DNA of 64,000 nt from positions 62,001 to 126,000 of the forward strand of contig DATNNM010000007.1 in the NCBI GenBank assembly GCA_035601835.1. The letters are read 5' to 3'. The notes beneath the pieces are model-generated. The model had not been told where the DNA came from and made no database searches. It saw only the letters and a list, made by a program, of their open reading frames with translations. Shown piece by piece: positions 5,231-55,502 of the stretch. How positions within the stretch are numbered: the first letter of the stretch is position 1; the number at the start of each line of letters is the position of its first letter. The position numbers were made by a program, and so were the translations under genes. Origin of the DNA: Candidatus Tumulicola sp. GTDB lineage: Bacteria > Vulcanimicrobiota > Vulcanimicrobiia > Eremiobacterales > Eremiobacteraceae.

Positions 5231-6616
5231 CTATACTCGGAGTGTCGCGCTCCACGGCATTTCAATCCGGTCGATAGCGGACAGGGCCCGCCCGGCAAGC
5301 GCGATCCGGCGCGCTCTCTTGTCCTTGACGGGCGGATCCAGAGGTGTGAAATACGCGTAGGTCACATTTTGCGGCTGGAAGTCGGGGCTCGTGCCGTCGC
5401 GCAGATACGCCAGCAACGCACCGAGCGCAGTGTGCGCCGGCGGCACGAAGGGACGTTGGTCACCCGAAACCCGGCGGGCTGCATTCACGGCGGCCACGAG
5501 TCCGGTCGCAGCCGCTTCGACGTAGCCTTCGCAGCCGGTGACTTGTCCGGCTAGAAACACGTTCGGGGCGGCGCGCAGCGAAAGATCCTCATTCAATACG
5601 CGAGGCGCGTCGACGAACGTGTTGCGATGCATCACGCCGAGGCGCAGCCACTCCGCGTTCTCGAGCCCCGGTAACTTGCCGAAGGCGTTTTTCTGGGCCG
5701 GCCACGTCAGCCGCGTCTGAAACCCCACGAGGTTGTACGCCGTGCCCGCGGCGTTCTCGCGACGCAATTGCACGACCGCGTGCGGGCGCTTGCCCGTGCG
5801 CGGATCGTCAAGGCCTACCGGCTTGAGCGGACCGAAGCGCAACGTGTCCACCCCGCGGCGGGCCATTTCTTCGACCGGCAGGCACGCTTCGAAATACGGC
5901 ACCTTGCCCGCGGCGGCGTCAAGCTCAAACCCGTGCGGCTCGTGTTTTTCGCCGCTCACCAAGTCGACGACCAACTGCTCGTACTGCGCCCGGTCCAGCG
6001 GCAGGTTCAGATAGTCCGCGCCGCCGCCTTTGCCGTAGCGCGATGCCTCATAGGTCTTCGAGCGGTCGATCGAGTCCGCCGCGACGATGGGCGAAGCGGC
6101 ATCGAAATAGTGGAGCTGCTCGCGACCGCAGAGCCGCGCCAGCTCGAGCGCAAGCGCTTCGGAAGCAAGCGGTCCGCACGCGACGATCATGACGACGTCG
6201 GCATCGAGCGCGGTGATTTCTTCGCGACGCACGTCGACAAGGGGATGATCGTGAAGCCGGCGCTCCACCAAGTCGGAAAACCGCTCGCGGTCGACGGCCA
6301 GCGCTCCGCCGGCCGGCACGGCGGTAGCCCGCGCTGCTTCGATTATCAGCGAACCGAGGCGCGCCATCTCTTCCTTTAATAGGCCGACGGCGTTCTCGAG
6401 CGAGAGCGCTCGCAGGCTATTGCTGCACACGAGTTCGGCCAGGCGGCCGGTTTGATGGGCCCCGGTCTGACGGCCGGGCCGCATCTCGAATAGGGTCACC
6501 GGAACGCCGGCTTGCGCGAGCTGCCAAGCCGCCTCGCTGCCTGCGAGACCGCCGCCGACGACGTTGACGCTGGGAGTCCGAGTTTCGCTCGGAACGCTAC
6601 ATTGGAGTCGAGTCAC
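5231..6616 (-). CDS. trmFO: TrmFO, folate-dependent tRNA uracil-54 C5-methyltransferase
   Basis: Flavoenzyme making 5-methyluridine at position 54 of tRNA, using methylenetetrahydrofolate as carbon donor. The 461 aa include an FAD-binding [11 protein letters not shown] at 21-31, the LVCSNSLR motif with a catalytic Cys at 64, and a C-terminal [16 protein letters not shown] flavin segment. The start is GTG at 6616: its last two bases form the TGA stop of topA (GTGA overlap), so translation is coupled. The reading frame stays open to 7162 only as a shadow of topA. The order topA-trmFO-hslV is conserved in many Gram-positive genomes. Confidence 0.96.
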
Positions 6617-23242: not shown

Positions 23243-23244
23243 TA

Positions 23245-23262
23245 CCGGGGCTAAAGCCCCGG
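23245..23262. repeat. Dispersed palindrome copy C, between trkA-like and radical SAM genes
   Basis: CCGGGGC-TAAA-GCCCCGG, a perfect 7-bp stem. On the minus strand it follows the radical SAM stop as TAATGTAGTG then the hairpin, identical to the setting of the 45560 copy. It lies in a 27-bp gap between convergent genes. No T-run follows on either strand. Confidence 0.85.
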
Positions 23263-23269
23263 CACTACA

Positions 23270-25772: not shown

Positions 25773-26699
25773 TCACGTCGATGTCGCGTTTTCCCTTGCC
25801 GCAGCTCGCAACGCGGAGAGCGCCGCGATTGGATCGTCCGCCTCGATGCGCAGCGCGTCCGACATCCGCCTGAACCACGTCTGCTGCCGCTTCGCATATT
25901 GACCCGTTCGCCGTATCGTCGCGCGGACGGCTTCTTCGTAGGTCGCGAGACCTTGCTGCCATGCCAGCGCCTCGGCGTAGCCAAGGCCGCTGAGCGCCGG
26001 CGAATCGGGCCAGCGCGCGGCGATGGCTTGCGCCTCTTGCGCCAGTCCTTTCTGGAACATGTCGCGCACGCGGGTGACGATTCTCCGGCGCAACACCTCT
26101 CGATCGACCTCCAAGACGACCACCTTCAGCGCAACAGGGACGCACGGAGCTAAAGCTCCGTGGCTACGACTATCACTACGGCGCGCGAGCGCGGACTCCA
26201 ACGCGCGCAGCGTCCGATACGCGTCGCGCGGCCGGACGCGCGCGCTTGCCTCCGGGTCGATCGCGGCGAGCCAAGCGCGCAAAGTCTCGTGCGGGTGCAC
26301 GGCCGCTTCCATGCGGACGCGCGCGCGCAGTTCGTCGTCCGCCACGGCTCGGTCTAGCGGCATCGTTCCGCTCAGCGCTTCGATGTAGAGCCCGGTGCCG
26401 CCGACAAGGATGGGCATTTTTCCCGAGCGCGCGATGCGTTCGCACGCGGCAGAGGCGTCGCTGACAAACCTGGCTGCGCTGTAGCGCTCGCCGGGGTCGA
26501 CGAATCCGTAGAGGTGATGTTGGGCGCGGGCGCGCGCTTGCTCGGACGGCCAACCGGTGCCGATGGGCATGCCCGCGTAGACCTGGCGCGAATCCGCGTT
26601 GACGATCTCAGCGCCGATCTCCGCGGCGAGCAGCGACGCGATCTCGGACTTGCCCGAAGCCGTAGGTCCGCAGACCGCGAGCGCGGTGATGGGTGACAT
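25773..26699 (-). CDS. miaA: tRNA dimethylallyltransferase
   Basis: Adds the isopentenyl group to A37 of UNN-reading tRNAs. The 308 aa contain the P-loop GPTASGKSE, NADSRQVYAGMPIGT, LVGGTGLYIEAL and GLGYAEALAW. The start is ATG 26699, five bases after the mutL stop; the longer frame to 26870 shadows mutL. Between RALESALARR and PVALKVVVLEV lies SDSRSHGALAPCV, encoded by a palindrome of the dispersed family (26143-26162) inserted in frame. MiaA and MiaB act in sequence on the same adenosine, and both are in this gene run. Confidence 0.95.
   Translation of the reverse strand: MSPITALAVCGPTASGKSEIASLLAAEIGAEIVNADSRQVYAGMPIGTGWPSEQARARAQHHLYGFVDPGERYSAARFVSDASAACERIARSGKMPILVGGTGLYIEALSGTMPLDRAVADDELRARVRMEAAVHPHETLRAWLAAIDPEASARVRPRDAYRTLRALESALARRSDSRSHGALAPCVPVALKVVVLEVDREVLRRRIVTRVRDMFQKGLAQEAQAIAARWPDSPALSGLGYAEALAWQQGLATYEEAVRATIRRTGQYAKRQQTWFRRMSDALRIEADDPIAALSALRAAARENATST
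26143..26162. repeat. Dispersed palindrome copy D, in frame inside miaA
   Basis: CACGGAGC-TAAA-GCTCCGTG, a perfect 8-bp stem. On the coding strand it reads GTAGC then CACGGAGCTTTAGCTCCGTG, sharing the GTAG lead-in and CTTTAG core with the intergenic copies. It encodes SHGALAPC within a variable part of MiaA and does not break the frame. Confidence 0.85.
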
Positions 26700-30025: not shown

Positions 30026-32383
30026 TTAGACGAGTTTTAGCTGGGTATCGTCTGGTCCAGCGCCTTCCCGGCGGCGCCGCGGTGGGGGTCCGGAGCTCAC
30101 CGGCCTTTCCTCAATATCATCGGCAATTTCTTGCGCGCGGCGCACGACGTCCGCTGGCAGGCCGGCCATTTTGGCGACGGCGATCCCATATGAGCGGCTG
30201 CTCGAGCCATGCAGCAAGCGGTGCGAGAATACCGGCCCGCCGGGCTCCTCAGCGACCGCCACGTGCAAGTTCTGGACGACCGGGTAGGCGCTCGAGAGCT
30301 TTACGAGTTCGTGGAAATGCGTCGCGAAGAGCACCATGGGCATGCCCGCATCGAGACCAAGCAGGTGTTCGCACACCGCCTGCGCGATGGCCAGGCCGTC
30401 CGTCGTGCCGGTCCCTCGGCCGACCTCATCGATGAGCAGCAGACTCGCGCGCTGACTGCGGCGCAAGATCAGCGCCATCTCCGCCATCTCGACGTAGAAG
30501 GTCGAGCGGCCGGCTGCGATGTCGTCGCCCGCGCCGATGCGCGTGAACAAGCGCTCCACGATGCCGATGCGCGCGCTCTCCGCCGGCACGAAGGAGCCCA
30601 TTTGCGCGAGGATCGCGAGCAGCGCGGTTTGCCGCAGGTACGTGGACTTGCCGCCCATGTTCGGGCCGGTGATCAAGAGGAAGCGCTGCTCCGCGTCGAG
30701 ATGGCAATCATTGGGCACGAAGTCGACGCCGCCGTACGCCTCGACGATCGGATGGCGACCCGCGACCACGTGCACTTCATCGGCCTCGACGATCTCCGGC
30801 CGGACGTAGCGCCGCTCGCCGGCCACCTGCGCAAGCGAGCAATACACGTCGATCTCCGCGACGGCTTCGGCGAGCGAGAGCAGCGCATCGCGCGACGCCG
30901 CCACCGTTGCCACCAGTTCGTCGAACAGTTCGCGCTCCACGGCGATCTGGCGCGAGCGCGCGCTGAGGATCTCTGCCTCGAGCGCGCGCAGCTCTTCATT
31001 GACGAAGCGCTCGGCGTTGACCAGGGTTTGGCGCCGCACGAAATCGGCCGGCACGCTGTCGGCGTGCGCGCGCGTCACTTCGAAATAATAACCGAACGCC
31101 TGCGTATACTTGACTTTGAGCGATTTGATGCTCGTGCGCCGGCGCGTTCGTTCCTCGAGTGCCAGGAGATGCTCGCGCGTCTTGGTGCGCAACTCCACCA
31201 GCGCGAGCAATTCGGGCGAGTGTTCGGGCCGGATGGCGCCCCCATCCGCGAGGTTCGCCGGCGGATCATCGGCTAGCGCCGCCCGCAGCTGCCCCGCCAG
31301 CGGCCCTGCGACGGTCATGTAGCGTTCCGAGCGAAGCTCGGAGAGCCTTTGCGTCGCTTCCAGCGAGTCGCGCAGCGCCGCCAAGTCTTTCGGACCCGCG
31401 CGCAGCGCCGCAACTTTTTGAACGATGCGCTCGATGTCCGCGATGGAGGCGAGCGCTTCTTGAAGGCGCACGCGCAGCGCCGCCGCCAGGACCAGTTCTT
31501 CCACGCGATCGTGGCGGGCGCGGATGCGCTCGACATCCACGAGCGGCGCGCACAGCCAGCGCGCCAGCATGCGGCTGCCCATCGGCGTCTTGGTGCGCGA
31601 CAGCACGCCGAGCAGGGAGGCGCGCGAGTTCTCGCCGCTGCCGCTCGTGAGGTCCAGGTGACGGCGCGTCGCCGGATCAAGCATCATCGAGGCGCGCGCG
31701 GTCCGGGCCCGCGCCCGCGCGGTAATCGCCCTGCCGTCCAGCCGCAGATAGGTCAGGTACGACGAAAGCAGCTCGAGCGCCGAGTTCGCAGCCGGGCGTT
31801 CCGAGCGCGCGAATTCCTCGAGCTGGCTGCCGTCGAGCGTCGCCGCTTGATCTTCCACCTCCGCGACCGCGATGCGGCACTGCGCAGAGACGAAGGGGCG
31901 ATAGCGCGCGACGTCTGCATCGTCGGCGACCACGATCTCCGAGGGTGCGGTGCGATCGAACTCGGCCGCCAGTTCGTCGTCGTTTTCGACCACGCACACG
32001 CTCGCTGAGCCCGTGGAGACATCCGCAGATGCCACCGCGGTCACGCCGGCCTCGGTGGCGATCGCACACAGGTAATTGTTGCGCTCGGCGGCCAGCAGGT
32101 GCTCTTCGAGCACCGTCCCCGGCGTGATGACGCGAACGATTTCGCGGCGCACCAGGCGGTTGGGAGCCGGCGGCTCCATCTGCTCGGCGATCGCGACGAC
32201 GCGCGCCTGTCTGATCAGCCGCGCGAGGTAGATGTCGAGGTTGTGGTGCGGTACCCCGGCCATCGCGACGCGCCGGCCCTTGCCGGCTTCCTTCGAGGTG
32301 AGGATGATATGAACTGAAGCTGCCAGGTCTTCGGCGTCGGCGCCGTACGCTTCGTAGAAATCGCCGACGCGCGAGAGCATCAA
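30026..32383 (-). CDS. mutS: DNA mismatch repair protein MutS (5' end uncertain)
   Basis: Recognises mismatches. The 785 aa from TTG 32383 include the mismatch-contacting Phe-x-Glu (GDFYEAYG at about 8-14), connector, core and clamp domains, Walker A GPNMGGKS at 573-580 and LLIDEVGRGT. The C-terminus is short. The frame upstream of the TTG reads SSPLIAQYVALKAQYPEAL, the conserved MutS N-terminus, yet no ATG, GTG or TTG occurs in frame back to a stop within miaB. A CTG at 32464 is a candidate start. Translation from 32383 would lose about 25 conserved residues. Confidence 0.93.
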   Translation of the reverse strand: MMLSRVGDFYEAYGADAEDLAASVHIILTSKEAGKGRRVAMAGVPHHNLDIYLARLIRQARVVAIAEQMEPPAPNRLVRREIVRVITPGTVLEEHLLAAERNNYLCAIATEAGVTAVASADVSTGSASVCVVENDDELAAEFDRTAPSEIVVADDADVARYRPFVSAQCRIAVAEVEDQAATLDGSQLEEFARSERPAANSALELLSSYLTYLRLDGRAITARARARTARASMMLDPATRRHLDLTSGSGENSRASLLGVLSRTKTPMGSRMLARWLCAPLVDVERIRARHDRVEELVLAAALRVRLQEALASIADIERIVQKVAALRAGPKDLAALRDSLEATQRLSELRSERYMTVAGPLAGQLRAALADDPPANLADGGAIRPEHSPELLALVELRTKTREHLLALEERTRRRTSIKSLKVKYTQAFGYYFEVTRAHADSVPADFVRRQTLVNAERFVNEELRALEAEILSARSRQIAVERELFDELVATVAASRDALLSLAEAVAEIDVYCSLAQVAGERRYVRPEIVEADEVHVVAGRHPIVEAYGGVDFVPNDCHLDAEQRFLLITGPNMGGKSTYLRQTALLAILAQMGSFVPAESARIGIVERLFTRIGAGDDIAAGRSTFYVEMAEMALILRRSQRASLLLIDEVGRGTGTTDGLAIAQAVCEHLLGLDAGMPMVLFATHFHELVKLSSAYPVVQNLHVAVAEEPGGPVFSHRLLHGSSSRSYGIAVAKMAGLPADVVRRAQEIADDIEERPVSSGPPPRRRREGAGPDDTQLKLV

Positions 32384-45556: not shown

Positions 45557-45559
45557 GGT

Positions 45560-45577
45560 CCGGGGCTAAAGCCCCGG
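45560..45577. repeat. Dispersed palindrome copy F, beside the UPF0158 stop
   Basis: CCGGGGC-TAAA-GCCCCGG. On the minus strand it follows the UPF0158-gene stop as TAATGTAGTG plus hairpin, the same 10-base lead-in as the copy at 23245. It directly abuts the terminator T-run. Confidence 0.85.
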
Positions 45578-45584
45578 CACTACA

Positions 45585-55426: not shown

Positions 55427-55441
55427 ATTAAAACGTAGTGC

Positions 55442-55459
55442 CGAGGCTTTAGCCTCGGG
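55442..55459. repeat. Dispersed palindrome copy G1, between livK and livH
   Basis: CCGAGGC-TTTA-GCCTCGG, a 7-bp stem. It is the left member of an opposed pair with 55466-55483. On the plus strand GTAGTG precedes it and GGCACTAC follows its partner, so the whole 55437-55490 block is itself an inverted repeat. Confidence 0.85.
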
Positions 55460-55465
55460 CCTGAC

Positions 55466-55483
55466 CGGGGCTAAAGCCCCGGC
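55466..55483. repeat. Dispersed palindrome copy G2, between livK and livH
   Basis: CCGGGGC-TAAA-GCCCCGG, identical in core to the 23245 and 45560 copies. It lies in opposite orientation to copy G1, six bases away, and 20 bp after the livK stop on the minus strand. Confidence 0.85.
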
Positions 55484-55502
55484 ACTACATCAGATTCCTT
55501 GA

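Follow-up and report, generated by a model that had tools for sequence, protein, structure and literature searches.

A GTAG-type REP copy read in frame within a variable loop of MiaA in Candidatus Tumulicola sp.

A short palindrome lies inside miaA, the gene of tRNA dimethylallyltransferase, in the genome of Candidatus Tumulicola sp. (assembly GCA_035601835.1). Does it belong to a dispersed repeat that entered the gene, and has it lengthened the protein? The locus is part of a window of 64,000 nucleotides, which is the whole stretch of DNA analysed (contig DATNNM010000007.1, positions 62,001 to 126,000); its features are listed in Table 1. The only miaA copy of the genome is open from end to end, its product scores 227 bits against TIGR00174 (cutoff 148.65), and its neighbours include hfq-like, mutL and mutS genes, identified from their translations and, for mutS, by Pfam. 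The initial annotation described the palindrome as preceded by GTAGC and as encoding SHGALAPC, in frame, between two conserved segments of MiaA, and the sequence bears this out. GTAGC followed by CACGGAGCTTTAGCTCCGTG occupies the minus strand from 26167 to 26143, and the codons around it are GAT AGT CGT AGC CAC GGA GCT TTA GCT CCG TGC GTC CCT (D-S-R-S-H-G-A-L-A-P-C-V-P), those from CGT to TGC specifying residues 178-186.

Table 1. Coordinates of miaA, its repeat copy and related repeats in the window.
Feature	Positions	Strand	Remarks
miaA (tRNA dimethylallyltransferase, 308 aa), intact host gene of the repeat	25773..26699	-	TIGR00174 and PF01715 above cutoffs
Palindrome, 9-bp arms around TT	26143..26162	-	inside miaA
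GTAG-REP copy, subclass A2: GTAG head + CCACGGAGCTTTAGCTCCGTG + C	26142..26167	-	26 bases; encodes R178-C186 (RSHGALAPC)
Intergenic REP, subclass A1	23243..23268	-	
Intergenic REP, subclass A1	45558..45583	-	
Intergenic REP A1, left half of inverted REP doublet (BIME-like)	55435..55460	+	doublet forms one hairpin, -25 kcal/mol
Intergenic REP A1, right half of inverted doublet	55463..55488	-	
Class B GTAG repeat, 1 mismatch	6577..6600	-	
Class B GTAG repeat, in frame inside mutS (30026-32383, -)	31319..31342	+	

A 9-bp stem is by itself unremarkable in this gene. Stems of at least 9 bp appear in 32 of 200 synonymous-codon shuffles of miaA, yet a palindrome arisen by chance in a GC-rich gene can practically be dismissed, because the miaA copy is an exact member of a genomic family, GTAGCNNNGGAGCTTNAGCTCC having 20 exact matches in the 2.57-Mb genome and the reversed control pattern none.

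The miaA segment is a GTAG-type REP copy. Its GTAGC tag is unpaired and lies 5' of an 8-bp stem with a 4-nt loop, an arrangement conserved in 101 aligned copies of subclass A1 and 19 of subclass A2, and tag plus hairpin is the architecture of GTAG-REPs according to passages of earlier reports (PMC3733652, PMC2817692). The repeats are dispersed and numerous. Class A, the GTAG..GCTTNAGC family (pattern GTAGNNNCNNNGCTTNAGCNNNG), has 236 copies in the 2.57 Mb, with 1 match to the reversed-pattern control, and includes the 20 copies of subclass A2; for class B, a separate GTAG class (GTAGCGTTCCGAGCGAAGCTCGGA), 86 copies are counted when up to 2 mismatches are allowed. The units end sharply, at about (T)GTAG..CCGG(A) in A1 and GTAG..CCGTGC in A2 (the latter boundaries drawn from the 19 aligned copies), and are 25-27 nt long; a unit of exactly 27 nt, which may be the true length, would preserve any reading frame. 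The GTAGC tag had also been likened to that of the intergenic copies. The tag is indeed shared, but the exact subclass (GTAGCCAC..) is otherwise absent from the window, in which the intergenic copies belong to the sister subclass GTAGTGCCGGGGCTTTAGCCCCGG. The two subclasses differ in the bases after the tag, and a common origin is plausible from their sequences because A1 variants with a GGAGCTTTAGCTCC core exist. As single-stranded DNA the miaA copy has a hairpin of -8.8 kcal/mol (z -5.9), and it is a singlet. The sample has 19 pairs of closely neighbouring copies, of which only two are inverted (+-), so that the unit is not the inverted doublet of a REPIN.

The orientation of the REPs is nearly uniform within some contigs (18/0 in C8, 0/16 in C9 and 1/25 in C10 for the two orientations), while C3, C7 and C11 have fewer of them and in mixed orientation. 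It shows a weak relation to gene direction and no correlation with GC skew, and a replication-strand preference is possible. In C15, class B repeats are dense and nearly all on the minus strand.

One Y1_Tnp gene (L009:1417-1890) was detected in the genome. It matches the REP-associated tyrosine transposase model NF047646 with 109.5 bits (cutoff 80), its match among PDB sequences is TnpA-REP 4er8, and it is flanked by inverted REPs at 1331+, 1386+ and 1940-. This RAYT gene thus lies between inverted REPs as in the REPtrons described for RAYT/TnpA-REP (BMC Genomics 2010, 11:44; PMC2817692); in the present genome, however, the flanking repeats are A1 whereas the miaA copy is A2. REPINs (PLoS Genetics 2011; PMC3116915) likewise combine REP units with a RAYT, and the window holds one inverted doublet at 55435-55488, but most copies here are singlets or neighbours in the same orientation and inverted doublets are rare. 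Across 60 related genomes the GTAG..GCTTNAGC pattern is nearly absent (0-4 copies), and therefore the family expanded in the lineage of the present genome. The three genomes of genus g5 (G004, G011 and G013), among them the one with the best MiaA match, match neither the REP pattern nor Y1_Tnp. On these sequence comparisons, the miaA copy was probably gained in the same lineage.

In-frame GTAG-REPs inside genes are already known from other bacteria. Passages of a 2013 report (BMC Genomics 14:522; PMC3733652) describe them within open reading frames of several phyla, with REP-encoded amino acids, in DNA repair genes, tRNA synthetases and tRNA pseudouridine synthases, and suggest flexible linkers or loops as the sites of tolerated insertions. 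The present repeats agree with those passages in the GTAG-tagged hairpin, the high copy number, the RAYT association and the presence of some copies wholly within ORFs and in frame. They differ in host lineage, in stem sequence and in the lack of a net length gain in MiaA, and miaA is not among the hosts that the passages name. The initial annotation drew its parallel with the palindromic elements of Rickettsia (RPE; Ogata et al. 2002, cited in PMC3733652). The parallel holds for the outcome, since short palindromes encode in-frame peptides in unrelated proteins in both cases, but not for the family: as far as the same report's passages go, RPE-4 and RPE-6 belong to a different superfamily, the CGTC type, RPE-1 has longer units and none has an associated transposase, while the repeats studied here carry a GTAG tag and accompany a RAYT with flanking REPs. 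An element of the Rickettsia type is thus highly improbable, and the miaA copy does not belong to the RPEs.

An insertion of this kind was expected to add about 10-13 residues that relatives of MiaA lack. This expectation failed. Between the RALE helix motif and the conserved block that follows it, the loop has 29 aa, and the relatives have 26-41 (median 29); because the loop has the median length of the family, the simple insertion test fails, and the locus does not resemble an RPE-like coding insertion whose segment is missing from the homologues. The proteins compared came from 13 family genomes and additional genomes of the class, together with E. coli MiaA and other solved MiaA sequences, and no excess of length was found; the E. 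coli protein and the other solved ones align across the loop with small gaps only. The opposite outcome, relatives having the same length and similar residues, is true of the length but not of the residues, the loop being hypervariable in sequence and length across relatives. The ancestral loop may have been unusually short before an insertion, or an insertion may have been accompanied by local loss. The suggestion that the segment might form a surface loop agrees with an AlphaFold2 model (mean pLDDT 85.6, from a 7-sequence alignment), in which the segment falls in a loop predicted to be disordered: residues 177-182 have pLDDT below 50, within a coil between a helix (160-175) and a strand (189-197).

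Other repeats of the genome also lie inside genes. The coding survey covered 1.11 Mb in stretches (some 43% of the genome); the surroundings of the A2 copies were sampled additionally, and genes were called with a home-made codon-usage caller. In it 17 of 139 repeats (about 12%) are wholly intragenic; the remaining 122 are not wholly within a gene, in sequence of which 84% is coding, so that the family is mostly extragenic, as GTAG-REPs are. All seven same-strand class A copies in genes use their sole open frame and give SAGALAP, SHGALAP or near variants. Of the seven antisense copies, six use one or the other of two open frames and give GAKAPAL-type peptides; the seventh is located at a predicted start codon. 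Interior class A copies use only the frames that give (S)AGALAP/SHGALAP or SGAKAPALQ. The class A hosts include CysS, PheT, ImuB, a SucA/SucB fusion and penicillin amidase, and repeats also occur in a glycosyltransferase, an acyltransferase and an ETF-domain protein; wherever relatives were aligned, the in-gene copies sit in variable loops.

Some of these hosts show further peculiarities. In the SucA/SucB fusion, a fused E2/E1 2-oxoglutarate dehydrogenase (L066:10450-14421; G000:C8:70450-74421), two antisense REPs specify SGAKAPALQ twice in the flexible linker that follows the lipoyl domain. The penicillin amidase gene (L166:3638-6034) contains a joined A1 and class B pair in frame and its product is 4-11 residues longer there than in family relatives, MutS falls short of its relatives by roughly a dozen residues at the class B copy, and the REP loop of PheT is longer than in most relatives.

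The reading that we prefer, with a probability of roughly 0.86, is that a GTAG-REP copy landed in a tolerant, hypervariable loop of MiaA and persisted as a neutral passenger filtered by selection. The repeat would belong with the miniature non-autonomous elements whose mobilisation is attributed to a RAYT (TnpA-REP) single-strand transposase, and such mobilisation would lie in the past. A copy would have entered miaA in the loop that joins the helix ending near residue 175 to the strand starting at 189. In the forward orientation it offers one stop-free frame, which would supply the Ala/Gly/Pro-rich peptide S-H-G-A-L-A-P, and it would have been tolerated because the loop was already hypervariable in sequence and length and is predicted to be disordered. 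Its role in the protein would be that of a passenger spacer that survived selection; its function there is most likely nil, and we infer that it is neutral. The event itself is taken to be an insertion, although the genomes searched included no member of the same genus and no empty site was seen. Other observations also stand against this explanation. The RAYT is flanked by A1 repeats, whereas the miaA copy is an A2; and MiaA, which shows no net gain in length, would without the REP residues have a loop shorter than that of any relative, a remainder to be expected from plain insertion only if the ancestral loop had been unusually short.

That selection has favoured the segment for a function in MiaA or in its mRNA, for instance as a hairpin that modulates translation of the miaA-hfq transcript, is very unlikely. 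The miaA copy does retain a stem of 8-9 bp, and the hairpin is still predicted in its RNA context. However, the RNA fold of the surrounding 71 nt is ordinary (z -0.84), with no unusual structure found around the copy, and no known RNA element was matched there in Rfam. In addition, the same peptide occurs in unrelated proteins and the sequence of the loop is not conserved.

The alternative that survives best, although it is still an improbable one, is that acquisition of a REP replaces native loop residues, for example through repair or template switching at the hairpin, so that REPs act as exchangeable linker cassettes and loop length stays constant. When the REP residues are subtracted, the loop falls below that of every relative in five of seven genes (MiaA, CysS, ImuB, penicillin amidase and MutS), and the shortness of MutS at its class B copy points the same way. 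Control loops without REPs are nevertheless also short in this genome, 3 of 11 being below all relatives (mean rank 0.37), so that short linkers may be a general trait of it and the contrast of 5/7 with 3/11 is weak; the long REP loop of PheT also speaks against replacement. The comparison of addition with replacement, made on aligned sequences, is suggestive at most. Doubtful to a somewhat greater degree is the broader proposition that the in-gene REPs of this lineage replace loop residues without lengthening the loops, and that a mobile hairpin thereby furnishes core enzymes of unrelated kinds with standard linkers rich in Ala, Gly and Pro (SAGALAP in the forward and SGAKAPALQ in the reverse orientation), as cassettes shared by the tRNA-related MiaA, CysS and PheT and the DNA repair proteins ImuB and MutS (the latter with a class B copy).

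The miaA copy taken alone is an ordinary example, but with it the few coding REPs on record gain one lineage and one host gene. The reading frames permitted to REPs specify linker-like peptides, and this would explain which insertions survive. Genomes such as this one, with hundreds of REPs of which a dozen or more are coding, could reveal whether repeats of this kind are added to a protein or take the place of its own residues.
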